From Kappaphycus alvarezii (Eukaryota; Rhodophyta; Florideophyceae; Gigartinales; Solieriaceae): a stretch of 64,000 bases of DNA. The notes beneath the pieces were generated by a model. It searched no databases. It was not told the DNA's origin and saw nothing but the letters and a program-made list of their open reading frames with translations. The translations under genes and the position numbers were made by a program. Where the stretch lies: NCBI GenBank assembly GCA_002205965.3, contig NADL03000623.1:1178001-1242000 (forward strand), given 5' to 3'. Below are positions 1,520 to 63,918 of this stretch, piece by piece; position 1 is the first letter of the stretch; every line of letters begins with the position of its first letter.

Positions 1520-3173
1520 ATGCCCCTGATGCCTCCGACGACTTCCTTCGCAACCAACGACCAGTCCACCCCTACCACTCCTCTTCCTTCGGTGTATGAT
1601 GCAATGCACAGCCCGCTAAGGCCCTCGGACATCTTCAACCGCATTCCTGGGAACTGCATTCACAGTCTTGCCATATTGCTCATTCGACTCTTTCGATCCG
1701 CAGCAAACGCACGGGACGCAAAAGCAGTGCATATTGTCTTCCTCCGGATACATCTTCTCCCGACCGCTGTCTTGCGACGTTTAATCCGTGGGGAAGCCGG
1801 ATGGCGGTCTCAGACAAGGCAAAGCGAAGGACTGCGAGGACGCATCCGCCGCGCCACCGCAGGCGAATGGAATGAAATTTGGAGAGAAGCCATCCAAGCT
1901 CACCAGATCAGGAAGAGCGAACTGTCCGACGCCGCCCGCAGCAAACCCAGACAGACAACAAGCGAGACCCAAAGTTTCGCCGGGCAGCCCACCTAGCGGC
2001 AGATGCACAATACGGGCGTGCGATGCGCGCCCTACATCAGTCGCACATTGCGGACGTTCGGGACCCACACGTTTTGGAACGTCTGCGAGAGTTGCACTCT
2101 GCACCGAACTCTCCTGTGACAGCCATCGATACGAGAGACCTCCCGCTCCCGATGGGCATCACTGAGGAGGCAGTCCTACACGCCGTCCGACGCTTGAACC
2201 CAAACTCCGCGCCGGGTCCGGACAGAATGTCCCCTCGGCTCCTTCGATTCTTTGCCAACACAACGGTGAGTCCTGAAGCAGGTGTGACGGGCATCTCGGC
2301 GCTTACTGCAGTTGTGACAAGACTAGCTCAAGGGGACTTACCAGGCGACACAATCCCTCTGATCTCCTCTGCGACGCTGCTACCCATCCAACCTCGGCCA
2401 GACAAGATTCGACCCATTGCTATTGGGACAGCCTTGCGGCGACTCGTAACAAAGGTGCTCCTACCACAAGCAATAGAAGACACAAAGGAGTACCTCGCAC
2501 CCTTGCAAGTGGCCAATGGCGTGCCCAGCGGACTGGACTCCATTGTGCACGAAGCACGAAGACTGGTTGAGCGCCAGGACGAGGAGCATGCACTGGTATC
2601 CGTGGATGCACACAATGCATTCAATCGATTCTCGAGCGAGCGCATGGTAAAGTTGCTGCCGACCAAAGCACCGTCGCTGTGTCGTTTTCTGAGCATGGTA
2701 TACGCCCGCAACACGCCGTCGCTGATGTTGCCCCTTGCGGCCGCACATGACATCCCTAGCCAAGAAGGTATGCAACAGGGGGACCCTGCAAGCATGCTGT
2801 TGTTTTCTCTTGTTGTGCATCCATTAGCAACAGAAATTGCCCAGCAGACACAGCTTAGTCTACATAGATGGTATGCGGACGGCTGCACTCTCATCGGCAC
2901 TCATACAGAGCTCGAGAGGGCAGTCGACATCCTCAGCTCCAGTGGACCTGACCATGGCTTATACCTGAATCACGCAAAAACCCGTTTGTTCTGGCCGCAC
3001 AGACTCGGTAACTGCACATCGCCACTATTCCACCGCTTCCCTGTTGAGAACTTTTCCATTGAAGGCATCGACCTTCTTGGGGCCCCAATTGAATCGTCAC
3101 AGTTTATGGAAAATTTTCTCAACGAGAAAATCAGAAGCTGCAAGCACAAATTGTCGCTGATTGAAGGTATCTG
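1520..3173 (+). pseudogene. LINE A ORF2, first part: reverse transcriptase
   Basis: Non-LTR reverse transcriptase. ATG 1520 opens a frame that shifts once near 1946 (a CCC run) and continues to the insertion point of copy B. RT motifs appear in order: NPNSAPGPDRMSPRLL, KIRPIAIGTALRRLVTK, VSVDAHNAFNRFS, EGMQQGDPASMLLFSLVVHP, then the catalytic box read as WYADGCTLIG, then LLGAPIES. The family expects F/YADD, so the second Asp is replaced or lost, and this copy is probably catalytically dead. The RPIAIG...LRRL and QQGDP style, with no apurinic endonuclease upstream and an RLE-like region downstream, places it among RLE-type LINEs; I cannot name the clade. The rest of the gene resumes at 5030. 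Confidence 0.8.
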
Positions 3174-5029
3174 GGGAAAAGGTGACCTTTGTATTGAAAT
3201 GCATAATGAGGGGACCGAGCGGTCCCAGCTGGACCTTGTGGGGCTCAACAGCGCTGAATTGACGCTGGTTGATCATAACGGCAGTGTAGCGTTGAACGAA
3301 GGCAGACAACGTGGTGCGAAGTGCACAAAACTCCGTGAATGCGGGCTTGCCTCGTCTAGCGGCGAAACAAGTTGCGATGTCTTGGAGGAGTTGAAGGCCG
3401 GTGATGTCAATCTGTCCATAAACATCGAAGGCCAGGGGGCGCAAGTCGATGCCTTCAGACCGGTATGGGGGGCCATAATAATTGTGCTTCTTGAGGGTTG
3501 CCCGCTCGAGCGTGGATGCACCGCCGTTGGCGAGGTCGCGGTGGGGACGAGAGTGGGGGCTGACGATGGTGACGTCGATGCTTTGAGGGGAGGGAGCGAA
3601 GAGTGGATCGTCAATGACCAGGTCGACCTTCCGTTGTTCGGCCGGGCTTTTGTGGAGGTCAGCCGCCAGGGGTCGTTCACGCGAGTCGGACAGGGCGATA
3701 GCAGGGTGGGTTAGGTGACGGAAGAGATGATCGCGTAGGCTGTTATGTCGTCTCACCGCGCCCACTGCGCCCTTACAGACGGATGCGTGGTGACCGGGAG
3801 CGTCCAGTATGGGGATGGGCTGGGCTGAACTTGTCGAGCACATCGGACAGAGACGAGAGCCATCGAAGATGGGGTTACCGAGGCGGACATCAACCATAGT
3901 GCGCCAGACTTATGTCTCGACGTAGAGGTCGTTGCTGGAGAGCGGTAGGGTGTAGAATGGGGCGGAAGCAGCAGTGGGTGCGACGGCCGCCAGGCGGGCA
4001 CGGTGATGGGGGGTGGAGGGGGTTTGATTTTGTAGACGGCGGAGAGTGTCAGTATGAAGGTGTGTGGTGATTTCGTCCTGTAGCTGCCAGGGGTGGGAGT
4101 CGACCGGTCTGGGCGTACGAGAGATGAGGTTCTCGAGTCGGAGATCCTGGGGGAGGTCGAGGGCGGTGGCAAGGGGGTCATAGGCGGGAGCGAGTAGGCG
4201 GGCGGGGTAGAGTCGGGTAGGGCCGAGAACTTGTTGGATGAGTGCGGAGTTAGTAAGGAGAGAAACGGTGTAGGCAATAATGTGAACGCCATGGGTCTGA
4301 GTAAGCCCAAGTCCGCCGGAGCGAAAGGGGAGTGTGGTTTGGGTCCAGCCTGTGTTTGTTTGGCGGCGATGTATGCTTTCGAATACCCTTCGCATTCCCT
4401 CATCAAAGGACTTGGCAAGGGCAGCGGTTAAGTGCGGCGGGGTACTGCGGAAAAGATACATGAGCCGACATGACGAAGCGCAAACTCGTAGGATGTGAAA
4501 CGCAAGATGGGGGTCATTCAACATGACGAGGGACGCTGGGCAAGAAGGTCATGAAAAGGCACCCGCAAAGAGTTTGGGAGGAAAGGCAAGGTTGGTACAG
4601 GGAGGGAGAAGATAATGGAAGGGGAGGGCAATGTTGGGGTTGTGTAGGTGGGGTCCCCCTCATTAGTTGGCTGCGGAGGCGGCGGCTGAGGTGGCCTCAG
4701 GGGTAGCGGATGTTGGGCCGTTGGGGCGAAGTCGCTTTGCGGCCGATTCATCTGGAGCGGGCGCGGGTGGAGGGGGTGCCACGGCCGGAAATTGGCGGTG
4801 GATGTCGGAAATCGAGGATTCGAGAACCTCAACAAAGTACCGCCTGGGCTTCCACAGACAGGAAGGGTCCTGCAGGCGGTCGGCTTCGGCCCGGAGGTGG
4901 GGGGGAGCGATCGGGCATCACCATCCGAAGTGCAGTGGGCGACAATGGGGCAGGTGCGGAGACGACAACTGGAGGGAGTGTGGCAGGGCAGTGTTGGCGG
5001 AAGGCGTCGTAGGCAGTTTGTGTGTGTGT
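3174..5029 (-). mobile_element. LINE B, 5'-truncated copy nested inside LINE A
   Basis: On the minus strand from about 4550 to 3250 the reading matches the second half of an RLE LINE ORF2. It begins DPHLAFHILRVCASSCRL and FRSGGLGL. A zinc cluster follows with CPMC, HHASVC and RRHNSLRDHL, then KVDLVIDD and SIDVTIVSP (endonuclease-like) and a final QRYTAVMINQ. One in-frame stop lies at 3910-3912. The 3' end abuts LINE A at about 3174. Flanking LINE A has an 11-bp near-duplication: 3163-3173 and 5030-5040 agree at 9 of 11 bases, a decayed target-site duplication. The stretch 4560-5029 (its 5' end) is Pro-rich in translation and not recognised. Unlike many LINEs it has no poly(A) tail. Confidence 0.7.
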
Positions 5030-9556: not shown

Positions 9557-10859
9557 CTACGTATCATCCACGCTAACAACGGTAGCAACTGGCGGTGGCG
9601 GTGCTGGCAGCCTACTGGGTGTATGTTTTGCTTCGCATTCAATCTCCTGCTCAGCCACCGCCTCGTCCGTTTTGACTGACTCCTTACGGGATAGCTTTCT
9701 TGAGCGTCGGCTTCTGATCACCACGACGGTGGCCAAGGCGATTACAAGAGCCACTCCCACTCCCACTCCTGCCGCAATGCCAATCACGACGCGATTGGAG
9801 GACGTCATCGGCTGGAGGATTGCTCTCGTGGACATGGTCCGCCTATATGCCATTCCTGGTAGCGCGTCTAGCCATTCTGCAAATGCCGCTGTACGGATAT
9901 AAATACCAGGGAACCCGGGTCTTGCGCAGCCCGTACCAGATGAGACGATGCCCACGAGGACCGCTTCGCCTTGATCATTGTATTGAACCATGGGTCCTCC
10001 ACTATCGCCTTTACTGTTGTGAGAACGTCAATGTCACAGGGGTCAACGAGGCATCATGAGGTCAGCATATAGCCACGGATTTGGAGGGTGTGGGCACAGA
10101 AAGGGCGGGTTGGACGGCATGTATGGGGGCTAATTACTTACCATGAATCGCATCCACCCTCCTCGTAACCAGCGCATACTTGCAACTCGGGACTCACGCG
10201 GGGATGTATTTCTCGGCAGATATCCCCGGCATTACGGGTACATCGACCTGTCTCAAAACCGGTTCCCTCTGACTGCTGGTTTCAGTTTCAGATGTCCTGC
10301 CGTAACCCAGCACTCGAACAAATGAGCGGGTGACTGGAATGGTTCCGTTGACATTAACCTGCATAGGACGCGCAACAACAGGAGCGTCTTGGCTGAGTTG
10401 AATAGCGGCAATATCATAACGTCGACGACGCCCCTGGTTATAGTCTTCATGTACAAAGACCTCGCTGATCGGCACAGAATGTGAGGTGGAGGCGGTGGTA
10501 GCGAGGGGACGACGAAGTGCGATGAGGGCAGTGTCGTTAACGCTTACATTGCAATGAGCGGCAGTAAGGACCCATCGGGAGCTGATGAGACTGCCTGTGC
10601 AGACAAAACCACGAGAATTGACAATGGCGACGAGGTAAGGAAGGAGATTTTCAGAAGCGTCATCGCCGTTGACAATGCGCATCTGGATGTGGTGTTGACG
10701 TGTGGAGAGAGTGCGAAGAGCGGGTGGGTCTTGTTGGAGTTGGACTGGACATGTTTGAGAGCGAGAAAGGGGATGGATGTGGAAGGTTGAAAGGAAAGGG
10801 GTAGCGAATGAAAGGGAAAGATGGGCTACGGTGAGTGTAAGGAGGATAGCTGTTTGCAT
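9557..10859 (-). CDS. Trypsin-like serine protease 2, membrane-anchored (2 exons)
   Basis: S1 protease with one intron. ATG 10859 is preferred over the upstream ATG 10997 because it opens a signal peptide (MQTAILLTLTVAHLSLSFA). Exon 1 (10859-10142) has MRIVNGDD (activation), WVLTAAHC, RRRYDIAAIQL (Asp102), SFVRVLGYGRT, VLRQVDVPVM, CAGYEEGGCDS. The intron 10014-10141 (128 nt, GTAAGT...CAG) splits the Cys191 codon. Exon 2 (10013-9557) restores CKGDSGGPMVQYN with Ser195 and Asp189, then GTGCARPGFPGIYIRTAAF, a membrane span (VVIGIAAGVGVGVALVIALA), and a basic then Pro-rich tail. One frame slip lies at the CCCC run 10224-10227; one more base joins VMPG to DICREI. Gene 3 has the same intron position. 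Confidence 0.85.
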
Positions 10860-11205
10860 CGAACGATGGAAAGGGTGACTGTGGGAAGGGTGGGGACGGT
10901 GGTTCTGCTGGGAGGGAAAGCATGCGGCAAGGGTTGGTGAACAGCTGCGTGGTGGTCTGGCTGGGGGGGGAGGGAAGGGGGGGTGGGTGGGTGTCATGGA
11001 GTTGCGGTGTGTGCTTTATGCGGTGTAGGAATTGGTTTGGGAAGTTAGGATTTAGCAAGGAGGTGACAGAGAGGCATGATGAGAGAGAAGGGAGGAGGGC
11101 ATTGAATTCTTGCGGTGACAGGGCGTTGATGCTGTGGAAGATTCATCGACTAGATTTTGCTATGAAGGCTGCGGGAAATGCACTGAGTTGGGTTTAGTTA
11201 AAGTC

Positions 11206-20919: not shown

Positions 20920-22175
20920 TTAACTCTTGCGTCTCACCATCATCACCACCACCACCACTACTACCACGAGAATCGCCAATCCAAGCGACCCTGCAACCGC
21001 AGCGGTAATGATTTTCCCCTCGCTCCATCCCTCTTGATACACCGCCACGGTCGAATTGCTTTTACTGTAGCCCGTCTTCCCTATTTCTTCATCCAACCAT
21101 TTTTCAAAAGCCGCCGTCCGCACGTAAATACCGGGAAAGTCTGGGCGTGCACACCCACTCCAGAAGATACAATCCCCACCAATACAGGCTCGTTCTTTTT
21201 GTTGTATTGAATCATTGGTCCGCCGCTATCCCCCTGACTATAAACGTTCAAAAACAGCACAAAGAATGCAATGGATGCGTGTCAGCAATGCACATGTGTT
21301 GAAGCGGGAATGAAAAAGTGCAGGCAAATCAACGCGGATCAGGACACCACAACGTCAGCAAACCGTGGTTTAGAAATGCACCCATCGCAGTCTTTGACAA
21401 TGCAACCAGGATATAAAGCGCAGGTGGACAAAGTGAGCAAAAGGCCGCAGGGGCAATTCTAGTTTAACGTACCAGGAGTCACATCCGCCGTCGGTGTAGC
21501 CTGCGCAGACATGGCGTGAGGGATCGATGAGAAGGCTCTGGATGACAGAGTAAGCCCTTTGGCAATCGGTATTCCTTGTTACGGGAACATCAACCTGATC
21601 TAGAGACCTTTCTAGTGAAGTGGGCGAGTTCTCGGCCTGTACTCCAAATCCTAGCACTCTGACAAACGATTTTTCGTCTGGAATGAGTGGGTTAATACTG
21701 ATACTCATATGCTTGACATTTGACAGAGTGGGATTTTCAAGTTGGAAAACAGCAATATCATAGGAGGGGCCTGTTGCGTCACGCGTGTTATAGTTTGGAT
21801 GAGGAATAACGCGACGGATATTGGAAACGAAAGAGCCGTTGGTTGGAAGGTGACCAAGTCCGAAGAGGGTATTGTTGGCAAGAAAAAGAGCGCGGTGAGA
21901 AGGAGAGATATTGCAATGGGCAGCGGAGATAGCCCATTGAGGAGAGAGAAGGGTAGCGGTGCAATAGGTAAACCAGGAGGACATGTGTGGATCATAGGAT
22001 TGAAGGGCGATAAGGTACGGAATGAGATGTGCGGAAGCGGGATGGCCACCGACTATGCGGGATTGGACAGCAGGGGAAGGGGGAGACGAGCAGGGCAAGA
22101 ATTTTGGGAAAAGATTGGGTGGAGGAGGAGAAGGAAGAGGAAGAGGGAGGGGGAGAAAGGAAGTGGAGTGGGCAT
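20920..22175 (-). CDS. Trypsin-like serine protease 3, membrane-anchored (2 exons)
   Basis: S1 protease, sister of gene 2. ATG 22175 opens a signal peptide (MPTPLPFSPSLFLFLLLLHP). A slip at the GGG run 22093-22095 leads into CSSPPSPAVQSRIVGG (activation site). Exon 1 continues with WAISAAHCNI (His57), PSYDIAVFQL (Asp102), SFVRVLGFG, DQVDVPVT, CAGYTDGGCDS and ends at 21473. The intron 21238-21472 (235 nt, GTACGT...TATAG) splits the Cys191 codon exactly as in gene 2. Exon 2 (21237-20920) gives CQGDSGGPMIQYN (Ser195, Asp189), SSGVG, then after a slip at the CCC run 21154-21156 CARPDFPGIYVRTAAFEKW, a membrane span (ITAAVAGSLGLAILVVVVVV) and a very short basic end (VRRKS). The long Val run is coded by GTG/GTA repeats. 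Confidence 0.85.
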
Positions 22176-22179
22176 TGTA

Positions 22180-22420
22180 GAGGGAGAAGGGGTGGGGTTG
22201 GGAGGGGGGGAGGGAACCCTCCCGGGAATGACGGAACTGTCAAAGGTGGGGGGGAGAGGATTTGGTTGTGGAGAAGGGGAGGGAAAGGGGAGGGGGTAAG
22301 TGTGGGTTACAAGGTTGGTAAAAGTAAAGGGAGGAGGAGGAAGTGGAGGAGGCGGGAAGAAAGGGGATAGGGGTGGAATGCGTTGCGAAGGGGCGGAGGG
22401 AAGTGTGAAGGTTAAGAGCA
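22180..22420. repeat. Polypurine tract before trypsin 3
   Basis: The plus strand is dominated by GGA, GGG and GAA and continues into the signal-peptide codons. It gives long open frames on both strands (for example 22029-22370 plus and 22053-22421 minus) that are composition artefacts, apart from the signal peptide itself. A GTACGGTACGG word lies at 22459-22469. Confidence 0.5.
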
Positions 22421-26755: not shown

Positions 26756-26759
26756 CTAG

Positions 26760-27196
26760 TGTCTATTGGACCGTTGTCCTCATATAAGGACAACGTTTAG
26801 CCCTTTTTTTCAATACAATTTTTTTACCTCAGGGCATTTCTTGTCCCTCCGCATTAGTTCATGAGTGTAGGTGGCAGATCAAAACAAACTTTTCAAGATT
26901 GTTGACCTCGGTGAAGGCTAGAGCAGTTTTCCCTCACCAGCTTCCGCTCTTCGCAAGAAGTTGTGAAAACGGCTTCATTTTGGAAGGAAATATAGTTCGT
27001 ATTATCGTGGGGGGTTTTAGAAACGAGGGTGCCTGTACAGTAAGAATTACTGTACTGTAACTTAACAAAAGAAACCTCTTTTGCAGTAAAAATTTCAGGC
27101 TTCCAAAACATTTACTGTTCCAAAATGTAACGGAAACTGTCCTCATATGAGGACAACGTGTGCCTCATATGAGGGCATAGCATGGTCGTATAGACA
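26760..27196 (-). mobile_element. MITE copy 1 (437 bp), CTAG-flanked
   Basis: Ends are TGTCTATTGGACC (26760-26772) and GGTCGTATAGACA (27184-27196), which are inverted repeats agreeing at 11 of 13 bases. CTAG flanks both sides (26756-26759 and 27197-27200), consistent with a 4-bp target duplication. Next to each end sit CTCATATGAG or CTCATATAAG palindromes inside GTCC...GGAC arms. The interior matches the plus-oriented copy at 36.6-37.1 kb over its length at roughly 85%. It contains no transposase; a 72-codon ORF shared with copy 2 is probably passive. Confidence 0.8.
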
Positions 27197-27200
27197 CTAG

Positions 27201-36623: not shown

Positions 36624-36627
36624 CTAG

Positions 36628-37082
36628 TGTCTACACGACCATGCTCTGTCCTCATATGAAGCACACTTTGTTCGCATATGAGGACAGTTTCCGTTACATT
36701 TTGGAAAGGTAAATGTTTTGGAAGGCCGAAATTTTTACTGTAAAAAAGGTTTTTCATGTTAAGTTACAGTACAATAATTTTTACTGTACGTGCGCCCTCG
36801 TTTCTGAAACCCCACACGATAATACGAACTATGTTTCCTTCCAAAAAGTAGTCGTTCTCACAACTTCTTGCGAAGAGCGGAAGCTGGTGAGGGAAAACTG
36901 CTCTAGCCTTCACCGAGGTCAACAATCTTGAAAAGTTTGTTTTGATCGGCCATCTACACTCATGAACTAATGCGGAGGGACAAGAAATGCGCTGAGGTAA
37001 AAAGAATTGTATTGAAAAAAAAGGGCTAAAAGTTGTCCTATTGGACCGTTGTCCTCATATGAGGACAACGGTCCAATAAACA
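36628..37082 (+). mobile_element. MITE copy 2 (455 bp), inserted in LINE E
   Basis: Ends are TGTCTACACGACC (36628-36640) and GGTCCAATAAACA (37070-37082). CTAG flanks both sides (36624-36627 and 37083-37086). The interior matches MITE copy 1 in inverse orientation. The right end carries a 40-bp perfect palindrome (37039-37078). The host is a LINE C-terminal tail whose reading continues on both sides (CGGCCTGCTAG to the right, CTAGATGGCTGG to the left, read on the minus strand). No coding capacity of its own. Confidence 0.85.
37039..37078. repeat. 40-bp perfect palindrome at MITE end
   Basis: Bases 37039-37058 are the exact reverse complement of 37059-37078, centred on CATATG with GTCCTCATATGAGGAC in the middle. 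MITE copy 1 keeps only part of the symmetry. Confidence 0.9.
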
Positions 37083-37086
37083 CTAG

Positions 37087-39696: not shown

Positions 39697-41413
<1,717 letters not shown>

Positions 41414-41419
41414 GGCCGA

Positions 41420-42050
41420 AAGGGTTGAGAGCGGGAAAGGGGAAGCAATTCGGTTAAAGGGAGAGACGTGAGGATAGTGAACTGTTTAAGTGCTGAGGTC
41501 AAAAAAAAGCGGCGACGTTTGAATATTTTTTTGTGGAAGGTTTATGGTTAAGCGCGGTTATTTTTGAGGGCAAAAAAATTAAAGGTAGGGGTTGAGCGAT
41601 CTTTTGGAGAACTGTATCATTTGTCAGAATGGCCGTTATGGACCCGTATTGTTGCCACGTGTACATAAGGTGTCCGAGAATGAGAAACTTTACATACAGT
41701 ACTTCATTGAGTCTATTGGCATCCTCTCCGGTGGCGCTTTTTGACGCAAGTGCTAAATCACATGAATGAAAAGTTTACATCAAATGGGAAAATCATACCA
41801 TACTGTACCGTATGAAGCACTAATTTAATGTTCATCAATTGGCTTTAGGGTTTTACGGCATTTCCCTTTTAACAATGTCCCAGTCTTGTCATCAATATAG
41901 TGCACGCCTTACCAAAACTCTATGGTACTGCAGAAGAAACTACAGTACTGTATACTTCATCAAGAAGTTTAATGCGTTCAGTATCTACTAATTGAGCATA
42001 GAAGGCTGCATGTTTTGATCGGGAGAGCACAATAATCGAAAATTTGATGC
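41420..42050. other. Upstream region of trypsin 4, with GTAC words
   Basis: GTAC-centred words lie at 41692-41702, 41800-41813 (TACTGTACCGTATG) and 41940-41954 (ACAGTACTGTATAC), the flank where a promoter would sit. No ORF recognised. Confidence 0.4.
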
Positions 42051-42823: not shown

Positions 42824-42846
42824 TTCCCCTTCTTATCGAGAACTAG

Positions 42847-45617
42847 TGTCCAAAGGACAAGAAAATATACTCATATGAGTACAAGCGATTGTTCGAAAAT
42901 ACCTAGATTTTTTTAATTAAAATTATACCTTGGTGTGCTGAATCCCTGAATACTAGCATCCACTAACTATAAAAGAAGTTTCATCCTCATTCACAATAAC
43001 CAATGTGACCTAATGGGCCTCAAGTATACAAAGGAAAAAACCATGAGTCCGACTCGCTACACTCCACAGGAGGGCATAAACTTCAGGAAGGTCGACATTT
43101 CTGCGATAGTCGCTACCTCAGTTTGCTTAGCATACCCACGTGAACATGAGCAGAGGGGTTAGTTCACTGATCACTCATAAAGGGAAATAACGCCATAGGT
43201 TTGTTGGCTGATTTCGCAAGTCGAACGACGCAAATGAGAAATGTATGTGGCTATAGTCAAGGACTCATTTTTTAATTTTTACTCAGTCAGTCTACAAAAA
43301 ATCTAAGCACAGGAAAGTAAAAATCACAATATAGTAGTTTAAAGTACCATCTAAATATGGCAGTAGTGGATATCGCGTAAGTGGTTATGAAAGAAGTTAA
43401 GCCCTGTCTTTGAATGGCTTATCCAAACCCCATGTTCAGTATCAGGCTCTTAGAGCAAAGAAATTTCGACTTCTTGTCATATTTGCAAGTTTTGCATCTG
43501 CTTTGAAAGTTCGCTTTCGTTGGGGCCCCATTGGCTCCTTCGCGCCTTTTCGCTATGAGAACTAAACAGATTTCAGTACCACAGGCCAAAAACGAAATAG
43601 AATGCTTTGGAACGTTAGCATCAGATCTGTGGACGCCAATAGAACCAAATGAATTGTCAATGAGTTTCTCTGCAAGTTTTACATAAAAATCCTATTTCAA
43701 CATGAAATTTATCGCACCCATTAAAACATTGTATAGCAGCCATGAATCGGCGATGCAAATTGCAAGCAAAGATGTATTAACCCTTAACGTCCTATCATTG
43801 ATTTCCAATTTCCTTTCCAATCCGAGATCATCCTGTCTGCATCTCTTATGCCTGTCAATCTGGGAGCAAGTTTCATAGTATTTGCCGAAAACCGCTGGGA
43901 CTGGAATTTACATTTACATAAGCACCATTTTGTTGCCAGCAGATCTCCAACGAGATCTTCTGGTCCGCTTTTATGGAATTCTTGTACCGGAAGTACTGAC
44001 AAAATATCTTCTGTCTCTATCCATCCACATAGCAGACACCATAGAAGGGTGGCTTTCCGTCCTCGAACTGACCATAAATATGTGATCCCCACACCTGAAA
44101 AGTTCCAACCCTGAAAAAAATTGACATAGGAAACTGCCTTGTTGCATTTCTGACGGCACCTGTAAACCTCAATCCATATTCGAAAAGTGCATTTGCTGTA
44201 GCCACAGAAGCAAATGTAGAGTCTGCAAAAATAAGTAGATTTGAATGAAACCAAGGATTAGTAAGGCGAAGAAAAATAGCAGTAAAATGAGGTAAATATG
44301 ACATATAACGCTGATTATTGCCGTCAGAAACTGAAAAAATAACCTTCAAATTCAGTGCAATTCCACTGTAACCCCAGCATGCAGTCTTGATTTTACATCC
44401 GCTTTCAGACTTAAGGTCCATAGCGGCATAGTGCAAGAGCCTTTCTGACGATAAATTTACCTTATTCCGTACCAGCGCGACATGCTTTCATCTACGAAAA
44501 TTCCCTCCGATGGCGACAAAATTGAACATCTATGCCGTTTTATGTGCTCCACGAACCCAAGGATCAAATAACATATTCTGTCAGTTCTTTCAGTTTCCGT
44601 GCAACGGCTGAACGTAATACATGGGACCAATGCTTCGAAACGGTTCCTCAAAATTGTTTTTCCAAACATCGCCAGTGGAATGTATTTTGATGTAGACTGC
44701 GTACTCCAAACTGACGTTCTGCCTGTGAACTCGAACCTCCATAAAAATACGAGAATTTTAAAAAAATTTAGAAATTCACGAGCTGCTGCATGCATGTACC
44801 CACTATTAGCGAGTTTCCGGGTTTTTAGGTTCGGTATTTGTGGAAATGTGTCCGAGGGGAAACACGCAAAAGAAAAAATTGTACGGGATCTTCTCATACT
44901 CGATATGACCATGAAAGTACGTGTCACCTGCTGGACTAATTACCTTCCATGGACGATGAGTCGTTCATCCATTCAACGGTAATAATATCTCCTGATTGGT
45001 CCAAAATTTTCCATGCACTTCTTTGCGTACTTTTCCTAGTCCGGCCACCCCATTACATTATTCTCGAGGTTTTATTTCTGAAGGTTTACGATTAGGTAGC
45101 TCGACCACGGCAGCAGATGCCTCTATTTCATCGGATGTTGCTGGGCCACCTTCAGATGCTTCTCCTGGCTTGAGGTTGACAACTTCCAAGTAAACAAGCT
45201 TTGTCCGGTCCTGAATGGACCGCTCTGCGGTTACTCTGGTCGGACGTCTTCCGGTAGATGTTTCAATTTCGATGCTGGCCACAGTTCCGTTGACGCGTTT
45301 ACTCTTCCAAAGAGAACCGAATAATCGCTTACACTCAGCCGCTGACGTAACAAGGGTTGCTCGAGTGTTGACAAGGTTTCCAGGCTGTTGACGGGGTCAT
45401 TTGGATTTGTCATTTTTGGTTAAATTTTGCGATGTTGACAAACTTATTGTGTGATCGGTTGAGCAGTTTAGGTGTAAACTCCGAAGTTTTGCACGGTTGA
45501 CTACCTAAGGGTGCTACTATATTACTGAAAAGCTAATGGTGATATTCTGTAATTTTTTTATATAAAAGTTTGCTGTTAGAACTAAGGACTCATATGAGTA
45601 CAATTGTCCTATGGAAA
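42847..45617 (-). mobile_element. piggyBac-like DNA transposon (2.77 kb), CTAG-type flank
   Basis: Left end TGTCCAAAGGACAA (42847-42860) and right end, inverted, TTTCCATAGGACAA (45617-45604) agree at 12 of 14 bases. Each is followed inward by an ACTCATATGAGT palindrome (42870-42883 region and 45588-45599). The left flank is CTAG (42843-42846); the right flank is CGAG (45618-45621), one change from CTAG. The transposase reads on the minus strand inside. The layout TGTC, GGAC, TCATATGA matches the two MITEs. About 930 bp between the left end and the transposase stop is AT-rich and empty. Confidence 0.7.
43784..45413 (-). pseudogene. piggyBac-like transposase, frame-broken
   Basis: DDD transposase of the piggyBac (DDE_Tnp_1_7) family. 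Minus-strand pieces in order: an acidic/basic N-terminus (45413-45058); FLNFFKILVFLWRF, RFEALVPCITFSR and SEGIFVDESMSRWYG (first Asp; 44927-44457); SGCKIKTACWGYSGIA, LLIFADSTFASVATANALFE (second Asp) and YGLRFTGAVRNATRQFPM (44436-44017); MDRDRRYFVSTSG (third Asp) and KWCLCKCKFQ, ending with a stop at 43784-43786. All three catalytic Asp positions are present, but the reading needs at least three frame changes. I see no Cys-rich C-terminal RING/PHD-like finger, so the C-terminus may be short or lost. Confidence 0.75.
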
Positions 45618-45845
45618 CGAGACAGTAAATGAATAAAGCAGCGGATAAGTGGTTGAGTAAAAGTTGGAAGTGAATATGTGAGTTCTTTATAAATATGGAT
45701 TTGGAAAAAAGAAAGGGACATCAATCGTTAATGCACTGCCCTCCAGCGGATTAATATAAATGAAGAAAAAAGCCTTTTCTTTCTTCACAAATTCCTCTCT
45801 AAAACGTTAAAAAAACCAAATTTGAGTTATCTCCTACCTGAAACA

Positions 45846-52199: not shown

Positions 52200-52591
52200 A
52201 GCGGTCATCTCCGCCGTCGTTCCGTCCTATGTCTCAAGTCCTATGGCGCAACACCCAACGCGCCGCTCCCGTTTGGTCTCAAACCCTTCAAGCCTCCGAA
52301 TTACTTCTTCGGGCACTTCGTTTTGGAGTTTACGAGCGCCCAGTGAAAACATCTCTTTCCGACACTCAATTCCGTCTCCCCAAAATCCCTATCGATCCCT
52401 CCGACCGAGAATTCTTCGACGACGTAATCACAGACGCTCTTTACCGCCGAACGTACGAGTAAATCTCAGTAGCCGAAGCTCTCAGTTTGCATAAGGACGT
52501 CTATCCGATCTCAAACGCATTCGTTGGAGTTACCGGGGAAAAACAGCGGTTGGTGGTAAACCTTTTCCGCTAGTCTAGGTTTTTTCGGGAC

Positions 52592-53518
52592 ATGCCGGTC
52601 AAAATGGAGACCCTGGAAGGGTTCGCTCTGGATCTCAAGCGTTCAGACTCCTTTTTCTCGTTCGACTTTGCGAAGGGATATCACCATTTTCGATTGCATC
52701 CCGATATTCGCAACTGGTTTATCTTCAAGGTGGACCACCGATATTTCCGCTGTATCGCCCTTCCTTTTGGCTGGAAGCTGTCTCTGGCATATTTTATCAA
52801 GCTAATGGGACCCTTTGTCCGCTTCGTCCGAAATCGCCTTCGTCTGCGTATGTACCCATACATGGACGACTTTCTGGTCGCGGTTCGCCGACGCTCTCGT
52901 CTCTACAAGGCTCGAGGGAAAATCGATCGCCTAATGAAGGCTTGCGGACTACTTCGCAAGGAAGACAAGGTAAACTGGGCCGGAACACAGTGCATCGAAC
53001 ATCTCGGTTTTACTATCGACACCACTCGTATGATGTTTGGAATAACTGCAAAGCGCATGGACAAAATCAAGGGTATCTCGCAACAGTTGCTCCGCCAAGC
53101 GCGTCGAAACCGCCGCCTGGTCGACGTCCAACTGTTACGCCACTTCGCAGGAGTGGCAATATACTGCTCCCTGGCCATGCCACTCGCACGGTTCTACACC
53201 CGATCCATCTACGACTCTCTCAAGCTGAACACATCCAACTCAGGGAAGCGAGTGAAGCTGCTTCACTCAGCAATTCGGGACCTCAAACATTGGCGCGATC
53301 TAGCTCACAGTCCGCCAGAGAGGCCAGTGTCTACCCCATTCCCTACGCTCGCGCTCCACTCGGACGCATCAACGACCATTGGTCAAGGGGGAACCTTGGG
53401 CTCCAATCTGCAACCAGGGACCCAAGGATCGTGGGAAGCTCGTGGCTTATGGGATCCTCTTCTTCGTGTCAAGCCAATTACATTCTTGGAGCTCCGCGCC
53501 GTGACGGACAACATCTGA
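52592..53518 (+). CDS. RT-RNase H region of the DIRS-like element
   Basis: The RT palm is clear: SFDFAKGYHHFRLHPDIRNW, FRCIALPFGWKLSLAYF, YPYMDDFLVAV (catalytic YMDD), then IEHLGFTIDTTRMMF. RNase H begins near 53340 (LALHSDAST, then ITFLELRAV) and continues downstream as WEDNQAVEAIL, MQELRVLHRLL and YLPSAVNRFADRLSR (53531-53760). LPFGW plus YMDD favours the DIRS/Ngaro group over Ty3/gypsy. Confidence 0.75.
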   Translation: MPVKMETLEGFALDLKRSDSFFSFDFAKGYHHFRLHPDIRNWFIFKVDHRYFRCIALPFGWKLSLAYFIKLMGPFVRFVRNRLRLRMYPYMDDFLVAVRRRSRLYKARGKIDRLMKACGLLRKEDKVNWAGTQCIEHLGFTIDTTRMMFGITAKRMDKIKGISQQLLRQARRNRRLVDVQLLRHFAGVAIYCSLAMPLARFYTRSIYDSLKLNTSNSGKRVKLLHSAIRDLKHWRDLAHSPPERPVSTPFPTLALHSDASTTIGQGGTLGSNLQPGTQGSWEARGLWDPLLRVKPITFLELRAVTDNI

Positions 53519-54229
53519 TCGTTTGCCAACATGCTCAAGTCATGGACTCACCTCAGAGTATGGGAGGACAACCAAGCAGTCGAGGCAATTCTCAACGCTA
53601 TGACGACCAAGTCCCGACCGCTCATGCAAGAACTCCGCGTGTTACACCGCTTGTTACAGAAGCTGGGAATCTCCATAGAGGCACGTTACCTCCCATCAGC
53701 AGTCAATCGATTCGCCGATCGGTTGTCACGACTGCACACTCTCGACGATTGGAGGATCAATCAGGAGACAGTCCAACCGCGGCTCGAATCATACCGTCCG
53801 ACTATCGACCGATTCGCCGACAGCAGCAACAAGGTCTGCGCCAAGTTCAACAGGGAATTTGCGTGTCCTGGCTCCCTGGGGATCAACGCGTTACAACAAG
53901 ACTGGCGTTCAGAGCTCAATTTTTGGAATCCCCCGCTCAAGTTGATTCCACTCGTCGTGAACAAAATTTGCCACGAACAGGCAAAAGGAATACTGGTCAC
54001 GCCTTGCTGGCCCGCTCAGCAATGGTACACGAAATTGCTCCATTTGGCTCGTCCGCAAGTTTTCGCCGCAGAAGATCTCTACCTCCTGCCAATTTGGGCC
54101 CCGAAGACAATGCCCTCTCCTCCGTGGAAATTGGCCGTCTGGACAATCTAGCAGAAGAGGCCCGGACTCTAGCTCTAGCCGTCACGCTACAACAGTCGGT
54201 GCTTACAGTGGCTGGGACTGGGGCGACTA

Positions 54230-61699: not shown

Positions 61700-63918
61700 A
61701 AGTCATGCGTTGAGAGTCCCGAAGACTAGTTTGGAGTCCAATACCATCGTTAATTGTCTTGAAGACAACAACCAGATCAGTGAGGAAGATATTCCAGTGG
61801 AGGAATTAATTTTACTTGATGGGACACTGAAAGACGTGAAAGTGTCCGTCCTCAAGGAAGATGGTTGTAATACAAACGTAGTATCAAGGAATTTCGCAGC
61901 TCGGAACAGAGAAAGTTTCGATTTAAGAATGTCAATGTCACTGTCAATCATTCGAGCAAAAAGTCAAAGGAAACAGCGTCTGAAGTCATCCTAGAAGCAA
62001 CATTGAAGATTGGTTCCCATCTGTATACATCCAATTGGGTTGTTGCGAATTATATGATGTGCTTGTTGGAATGCTATGGCATGTTATCAACAATCCTGAT
62101 ATCGATTATCAAGAACGGATTGTTAAGGATGGCAAACACGCGATTCCAATTACTGAAGATAATTCGAGCGAACAAGTTAGAGTCACAAGCATTGGAGTTA
62201 AGAAATTCCGGAACATGATTAGAAGAAAGAATCATGGGAGAGATTTAAATGTGTATCAACTTTTTGATGTGAATGAGTTGAAGTTGACTAAGCCCTCTGC
62301 AATCAAAGGCCAAAAGAATGCCAAATTGGAAAAGCTGCTGTTTCGATTTAAGGATGTCTTCAAAGGGGAAGTACCTGCTGGACTACCACCAAAGAGAAGT
62401 GTGGATCATGAGATTGAGGTTGAGAAAGGTTCAAAACCACCTCATCGTCCGTTGTTTCAGTTATCCCCGCGGAGTTGAAAGCTGCAAAGGAATATGTTGA
62501 AGTCTTGTTGAGAAAGAAGAAGATCAGGCCAAGTAAATCACCGTATGGATCACCGTTATTTTTGGTCCAAGAGAAAGACAAGTTGAGAGGAGTGGTCGAT
62601 TATAGAGCACTTAATCGAATCACGAAAAGGAACAATGCTCCCTTGCCTAGATCAGATGAGATGTTTGATAGGCTAGGCGATGCAAGAGTTTTCTCAAAGT
62701 TGGACTTGAAAACTGGTTTCCACCAAATACGGGTAAAGCCAGAGGATGTTGAAAAGACCGCATTCAATACGAAGTACGGACAGTGTGAATATCTTGTAAT
62801 ACCGATGGGTTTATGCAATGCTCCTGCTACTTTTCAGTCGCTAATGAACCGTATCTTCTACGATTGCATTGATGTATTCATGGTCGTGTATATTGATGAT
62901 CTTCTGATATTCAGCAAGGATGAAGAAATCCATCTCAAGCACCTTGACATAGTGCTAAGTCGCCTGCAAGAACATGAGCTTTATGTTTCTCCAAAGAAAT
63001 TTGACTTTCTGAAGACAGAGATTGAGTTCTTGGGCTTCATAGTCGGAAAAGATGGTCTTCGTGTTAACCCAGAGAAAGTTGAGGTTTTGAAGACATGGCA
63101 GAAGCCTAAAACGGTGATTGAGATAAGAAGTTTTATTGGCTTACTTCAATTCTTTCGCAGGTTTATTCCAAAGTTCTCGGAAATTGCGGCTCCTTTGACA
63201 GATCTGACGAAGAAAGATATTGGTGTTGGTAAATGGAATGACAAGTGTGATGTTGCATTCCAAGAGCTGAAAGAAGCCATCACTCGAGCTCCTATTCTTG
63301 TTGCCCCGGATTGGAACAAGAGTTTCAGAGGACACGTAGATGCCTCACAATTTGCGGTTGGAGGTACTTTAACACAACTAGATGGAAACGGAAAGGATCG
63401 TGAAATTGCATTCTATTCCAAAAAGTTGTCCCCACTGAAAGAGATTATTCCGCAAATGATAGGGAACTTCTCAGTTTGATATATTTTCTTCAAAGGTTCA
63501 GATGTTATTTGGAAGGTTCATCATTTGAGATCATTACTGACAATCAGGTTCTCAAGCATTTATTCACTAAGCCTAAGTTGAGTCGGAAAGATGCAAGGTA
63601 CATCGAAACGCTTGGTAACTTTGGAATATTTCCAATTACCTTGAAGCAAGGAAAGATTCATGTACTTGGTGAAACTTTGTCGAGAGCTCTCATGTAATCA
63701 ACTCTAAGGATATGGATAAACCTTAAGTTAATGATGTGGAAGCGCTATCTATTAATCTTGATGATATCCTTAGTAGTTATGATTATAATCAGTTCTTTGG
63801 ATCTATTGTTAGAGCCTTAGATGGAAACTGGCCTTCTGATGAAATTAAGAAAATGAAGCTTGAAAAGATAATTCATATGTTTAAGAGAGACGGAAAACGA
63901 CTTATGTATGTTAATTAA
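61700..63918 (+). CDS. Ty3/gypsy Pol region: protease, RT, RNase H
   Basis: A protease-like stretch lies near 61800-61910 (LKDVKVSVLKEDGCNTNVVS). RT from 62475 is well kept: SPYGSPLFLVQEKDKLRGVV, RVFSKLDLKTGFHQIRV, MGLCNAPATFQSLMNRIF, VVYIDDLLIFSKD (catalytic YIDD), FLGFIVGKDGLRVNPEKVE. RNase H follows (HVDASQFAVGGTLTQ, FYSKKL, EIITDNQVLKHL). These motifs place it in Ty3/gypsy. Integrase lies beyond the window. Confidence 0.8.

Follow-up and report, generated by a model that had tools for sequence, protein, structure and literature searches.

Evidence for a CTAG-targeting piggyBac-superfamily lineage and associated miniature inverted-repeat transposable elements in Kappaphycus alvarezii

The tetranucleotide TTAA is regarded as the hallmark of piggyBac, which is also a widely used gene-transfer tool, and the locus described here raises the question of whether a lineage of this superfamily inserts at another target. 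In this work, we analyzed a 64,000-nucleotide stretch of the red alga Kappaphycus alvarezii (the window; C619:1178001-1242000), which contains a degraded element with a piggyBac-type transposase and two miniature inverted-repeat transposable elements (MITEs); genome-wide searches covered the assembly it belongs to (336,021,096 bases in 884 contigs). A first-pass annotation had reported CTAG before the left tip of the element (TGTCCAAAGGACAA) and CGAG after its near-inverse right end, together with CTAG on both sides of the MITEs at 26760-27196 and 36628-37082, and reading the letters confirmed these coordinates and flanks. Our results point towards a piggyBac-superfamily lineage with CTAG as its target, whose transposase, or a sibling of it, moves the MITEs, a reading to which we assign a probability of roughly 0.8. 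Papers are cited by PMC number.

The window alone provides weak evidence: CTAGTGTC has four matches in it against 1.44 expected from shuffled sequence, and at least four were obtained in 7 of 100 shuffles, CTAG itself occupying 125 of 63,997 window positions (0.2% of 4-mers). For the genome-wide comparison we used a 198-bp query for the piggyBac left end, a 201-bp query for the right end and a MITE query, scored the best 40 of 261, 283 and 1462 candidates, respectively, and read the letters at 30 loci per query. No recognisable tip was present at one piggyBac left end (L026), nor a right tip at one MITE locus, and the duplicate loci L002, L062, L032, L049 and L056 were dropped; the pairs L065/L068 and L077/L089, with flanks 92% alike and possibly one duplicated insertion each, were retained. 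The first-pass annotation had called for the flanks of genomic copies to be tabulated. CTAG adjoined 95 of the resulting 110 tips (piggyBac left 21/28 and right 23/29, MITE left 26/27 and right 25/26), a count that carries a small bias to intact flanks since in the queries the left side of both element and MITE came with its CTAG, and TTAA adjoined none of the 110. Beyond CTAG the bases were near random, with no strong preference (the first base was A in 38 of 95).

The MITEs were also counted by pattern. TGTCTATACGACC...GGTCCAATAGACA at MITE spacing gave 136 matches genome-wide and none for the reversed control, and a count with slightly shorter tips gave 134 MITEs with CTAG on both flanks. 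Among 100 listed matches, which represent 99 distinct MITEs with intact tips because the C539 MITE was entered twice, 84 had CTAG on both sides, 8 showed a one-base deviation and 7 had other flanks. A TA with freely variable outer bases, the pattern that the first-pass annotation had named as incompatible with a CTAG target, was thus not seen, and what remains of it is a mild excess of changes at the outer bases, considered below. The seven MITEs with other, unread flanks are C244:13383, C545:282026, C557:110135, C585:1854795, C586:839938, C631:1011832 and C673:213412, and additional matched duplications at sites other than CTAG may be present among them. At C610:382864-384057 and 396357-397550, MITEs stand in pairs, the two members of each pair being oppositely oriented and some 750 bp apart; the second pair is 13.5 kb from the first and has equal spacing, and one MITE of each pair (L048, L049) has agreeing flanks.

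A constant CTAG at the border could belong to the target or to the element. The joined flanks of 29 MITE loci, all but one of the 30 and with duplicates retained, were compared with all other sequence read, and seven distinct MITE insertions had relatives spanning the site without the MITE. In three of these cases (L033, L058 and L060) one or more relatives have the two flanks joined by just one CTAG, that of the L060 site lying within L033 (85% identity over 396 bp), and a doubled CTAG occurred in none of the insertion-free relatives of the seven. The single CTAG in these relatives argues that CTAG derives from the target and is duplicated at insertion. Were it instead part of the terminal repeat of the element itself, inserted without duplication, its near-constancy at both element ends would be accounted for, but the insertion-free relatives would not, and a MITE copy with CTAT on both sides (C4:435660) would require two matching mutations; we rejected this explanation on the strength of the relatives with a single CTAG, and its chances appear very slim. 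These relatives, together with the flanks of the genomic copies, bear out the CTAG target proposed in the first-pass annotation. At the L038 MITE the relative (L042 1391-1321) is four bases shorter, with CCCACTAGGCGG against CCCACTCTAGAGGCGG in the joined flanks, which is perhaps an indel or an unusual insertion without duplication.

The transposase belongs to the family PF13843 (DDE_Tnp_1_7). Five of five pieces scored above the curated cut-off, and open stretches from other copies matched at E values of 2.6e-17, 8e-20 and 8.7e-37. Eight additional window frames of the element matched no Pfam family, and no Tc1/mariner transposase was present in the 10 window frames and 3 other-copy stretches compared with Pfam, the rest of the genome not having been searched. 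In a phmmer search of PDB sequences, piggyBat (9c0f) was the one structure matched (E 3.9e-5). Of the 119 PF13843 matches in the genome, 12 are no more than 2.6 kb away from a CTAG-family end, when the 80 listed ends are considered (for each side the 40 best-scoring candidates, out of 261 and 283). A higher-scoring PF13843 group (223-228 bits), which would make a natural control, is found at C681:102169, C744:1634156 and C675:904730; the 901-base stretch read beside its best-scoring match (C681; L091) contained no recognisable end.

In the alignment of the copies (A1), the first catalytic Asp (VDESM) is present in all five covering rows, the second (ADSAF) in six of seven, being lost in the L019 row, and the third (IDRHN) in three of four, being lost in the L010 row; these residues, at the D268, D346 and D447 positions, were placed by eye on the motifs of PMC2533014 and are spread over partial copies. 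A Cys/His-rich C-terminus is visible in L012. The conserved piggyBac motif PxxxxxxYxxxxGGVDxxD (PMC2533014) reads P-Y-SQID-N here: the Y is present in all four rows, GG is replaced by SQ in three and SR in one, and D450 by N in all four, while P and D447 are retained in most rows. The omega loop is about seven residues longer than that of piggyBat. In what we take to be the N440 place stands Y or C, the residue numbers having been counted off along the published motif and the Trichoplusia ni protein and being not structure-based. In T. ni piggyBac, N440 contacts the first A of TTAA (A-2) and the omega loop assists TTAA melting (PMC7351741). Judged from the alignment, the transposase appears to depart from piggyBac motifs at positions that contact TTAA in piggyBac.

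In its transposase family, its three catalytic Asp, its apparently cysteine-rich C-terminus, its short tip repeat with a palindrome farther in that is not equally distant from the two tips, and its palindromic four-base target, the element resembles piggyBac of T. ni and the superfamily at large; an imperfect palindrome also lies directly inside the tip motif of piggyBat (PMC11707139). It differs in the target itself, in the residues and loop described above, and in its tips, which begin TGTC whereas CCC or CAC is reported for many members (PMC10813416, PMC10140906). Scattered non-TTAA duplications of piggyBac-like elements have been described (PMC10813416, PMC10140906, PMC12732532), without CTAG being given in the text available, and were put down to possible mutation in the first two of these papers. 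The elements of PMC10813416 are, like those described here, piggyBac-like without TTAA flanks, but they are few and most lack reading frames, whereas CTAG is here the genome-wide target of two families. PiggyMac of Paramecium likewise makes a four-base stagger centred on a conserved TA and accepts outer bases beyond those of TTAA (PMC3408717); it is, however, a domesticated transposase, whereas ours belongs to a mobile element and the outer bases are mostly C and G. The first-pass annotation had considered a CTAG-targeting lineage unusual, and our literature search, whose coverage left out Repbase reports and most subscription papers and reached others in part, turned up no piggyBac family with this target. 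Beyond this genome, no relatives were found among viral contigs, 16 matches of a pattern search in contigs of other genomes included none confirmed as a relative, and the MITE had no match among plasmids. By its transposase we file the element as a piggyBac-related lineage, not as a canonical TTAA piggyBac.

The MITE tips begin TGTCTATACGACC and TGTCTATTGGACC and are identical to the piggyBac tips at 9-10 of the first 14 bases, a level reached in 0-8 of 5000 shuffles. The strongest link lies in the layout: in both families the TCATATGA palindrome (at most one mismatch) keeps the same unequal distances to the two tips, +25 and +21, in 106 of 110 tips (piggyBac left 26/28 and right 27/29, MITE left 27/27 and right 26/26); the first-pass annotation had ascribed the exact palindrome to all three window elements, which holds except in the first MITE, whose left end has TCATATAA. 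At L020 and L055, a single CTAG stands between a piggyBac tip and a MITE tip, indicating that one was inserted into the flank of the other. The resemblance might still be convergence, the MITEs being moved by an unrelated transposase that prefers CTAG. Their tips differ from those of piggyBac at 4-5 of the first 14 bases, their interior does not clearly resemble the element (the best match, at E 0.016, falls on the tip and palindrome regions), and they look younger, with a mean identity to the majority sequence of 98.9% against 92.4% for the piggyBac copies (27 each, the MITEs being best matches to the query). Such a mover would nonetheless have had to arrive at the same asymmetric palindrome spacing, at tip identities that shuffling seldom matches and at the same CTAG, down to the tetranucleotide held in common at L020 and L055, and we regard it as unlikely. 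The link between transposase and MITEs that the first-pass annotation had drawn is thus strengthened by the shared spacing and the shared CTAG, though the loci read included no autonomous partner whose ends are exactly of MITE type. The MITEs would then be mobilised by a piggyBac-type transposase, the likelier mover being a younger sibling of the one sampled.

Several observations weigh against a CTAG-targeting piggyBac lineage that moves these MITEs: (i) at L033 and L058 some relatives have TTAG or ATAG instead, and at the remaining four of the seven MITE insertions the relatives read CCAG/CAAG/CAGG, CTTG or CAAA, or lack four bases; (ii) the two-ended piggyBac copies (seven, one of them a duplicate) yielded self-matches only and no true spanning relative; (iii) one-sided insertion-free relatives of five piggyBac ends read CTAC, CTAA, CTGT, GTAT and CTGG, none of them CTAG, in comparisons that end at most two bases from the border and from which MITE copies matching the L019/L020 flanks were set aside; (iv) no intact transposase was verified for any copy whose CTAG ends were read; (v) since the MITEs are much younger than the sampled piggyBac copies, those copies are probably not their source; and (vi) the outer bases of CTAG deviate more often than the inner ones, with pooled counts of 32 against 15 (two-sided p 0.019), 10 against 2 in the MITEs (p 0.039) and 22 against 13 in the piggyBac ends (p 0.18).

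The last point bears on the length of the duplication. The MITE counts come from one-base deviations in 11 elements (outer base 3 on the left and 7 on the right, inner base 2 on the left and 0 on the right), the MITE C4:435660 standing in two of these lists and changes within TA or at two flank positions being uncounted; the piggyBac counts come from tips with CCARAGGACAA. Such an excess would follow if only TA were duplicated and the transposase merely preferred CTAG. The element would in that case be GTGTC...GACAC placed in CTAG, with the outer C and G as a target preference, and at a palindromic CTAG duplications of two and of four bases give the same sequence. IS630, of the Tc1/mariner/IS630 group, duplicates TA and has such a preference for TA inside CTAG (Tenzen and Ohtsubo 1991, from the title as cited in PMC2170065), but its transposase belongs to another family. 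The transposase here is of piggyBac type, a dimer that in piggyBac mandates a four-base stagger (PMC7351741), and the scanned reading frames of the element matched no Tc1/mariner family. Moreover, the two sides of the MITE at C4:435660-436101 carry a matched CTAT (TTA-CTAT-TGT and ACA-CTAT-AAG), and the right-end piggyBac flank PR82 (L082) reads CTAA, as does one of its insertion-free relatives (L071), the other reading GTAT; the shared CTAA argues that the innermost base can derive from the target. A duplication of TA alone is accordingly quite improbable in our view, and the four-base duplication, for which part of the evidence is direct, is more likely, though not settled. As a speculation, re-use of a flap in repair could give rise to the outer-base excess. 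A 1.44-kb element at C699:121070-122513, with two inverted piggyBac tips and flanks of CTAA and CTA plus a base other than G, is likely an internally deleted piggyBac copy.

By analogy with T. ni piggyBac, in which the dimer of cysteine-rich domains is bound to a palindrome spanning bp 17-33 (PMC7351741), a mechanism can be sketched. The piggyBac-type transposase would bind the tip repeat TGTCCARAGGACAA and its C-terminal cysteine-rich domains would form dimers on the TCATATGA palindrome, whose centre lies 24.5 bp inside one tip and 28.5 bp inside the other; the element would be cut out, the CTAG target opened with a four-base stagger and the ends joined, leaving CTAG on both sides. The same or a sibling transposase would move the MITEs of about 440 bp, whose tips retain TGTC...GAC and the 25/21 palindrome spacing. 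The protein-DNA contacts and the hairpin chemistry of this scheme are presumed from the known system. In T. ni piggyBac all four target bases are unpaired, and the first T and last A are joined by an N1-N3 hydrogen bond which is said to be unsatisfiable by any substitution of the first T (PMC7351741). From base chemistry, C with G could form this bond with donor and acceptor swapped, and TTAA to CTAG would be a compensated pair change that preserves the contact and leaves the central TA unchanged. It is tempting to speculate, with somewhat less than even confidence, that the lineage switched its target through such a paired change of the outer bases, rebuilt its omega loop, lost N440 and GG, and gave rise to a MITE family of high copy number that shares its asymmetric arrangement of binding sites. 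If this were true, piggyBac would choose its target through base complementarity across the melted tetranucleotide, and this choice could evolve. As CTAG alters both bond partners together and could satisfy the N1-N3 bond, this idea is directly testable.

A CTAG-targeting lineage would be missed or misfiled wherever TTAA defines piggyBac; an oomycete genome paper, for instance, sorts MITEs into superfamilies by TTAA (PMC5907361). It would also provide a naturally occurring counterpart for studies of target recognition by piggyBac, with a practical bearing on gene transfer.

The features of the window are given in Table 1. The window copy of the piggyBac-type element is dead, its transposase being scattered over several frames with stops, and still has codons at all three Asp positions. 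The tip beside its right flank is changed as well, reading TTTCC instead of TGTCC.

Table 1. Positions of the piggyBac-type element, its parts and the two MITEs in the window
Feature	Position	Strand	Remarks
piggyBac-type element, degraded copy	42847..45617	-	ends seen directly; transposase on - strand; PF13843 in two open reading frame pieces
Left flanking CTAG (target duplication)	42843..42846		CTAG also beside 21/28 distinct left ends
Right flanking CGAG, taken as decayed CTAG	45618..45621		CTAG beside 23/29 distinct right ends
Left terminal inverted repeat TGTCCAAAGGACAA	42847..42860	+	seen directly
Right terminal inverted repeat, inward = TTTCCATAGGACAA	45604..45617	-	majority of copies TGTCCAGAGGACAA
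TCATATGA core of subterminal palindrome	42871..42878		25 bp from left tip
TCATATGA core of subterminal palindrome	45590..45597		21 bp from right tip
Transposase remnant, N-terminal part of PF13843 (profile 11-138)	44457..44927	-	E 2.2e-6; first catalytic Asp inside
Transposase remnant, middle of PF13843 (profile 156-245)	44017..44436	-	E 4.4e-5; second catalytic Asp inside
Third catalytic Asp motif remnant (IDRHK), different frame	43815..43862	-	letters seen directly
Total span of transposase remnants	43354..45413	-	N-terminal MTNPND to C-terminal CHI
MITE 1	26760..27196	-	same family as 36628-37082, opposite orientation; palindrome 21 and 25 bp from tips
CTAG flank of MITE 1	26756..26759		letters seen directly
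CTAG flank of MITE 1	27197..27200		letters seen directly
MITE 2	36628..37082	+	palindrome 25 and 21 bp from tips
CTAG flank of MITE 2	36624..36627		letters seen directly
CTAG flank of MITE 2	37083..37086		letters seen directly

A second copy of the window element lies on contig C460, with 98-100% identity across the queried ends. The window region is near-identical to this C460 stretch in three queries (98-100%; L001/L002, L031/L032 and L061/L062), and the C460 copy represents the other haplotype or else a recent duplication. Elsewhere in the window, reverse transcriptase remnants lie at 1876-3714, 52574-53518 and 62424-63479 (all +), the last with RNase H as well, and a weak match to Dam methyltransferase, a feature of DIRS-type elements, falls below the cut-off at 53519-54151, downstream of the remnant at 52574. 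Three reading frames for trypsin-type serine proteases (PF00089), probably with introns, are found at 10194-11015, 21370-22239 and 40286-41485 (-).

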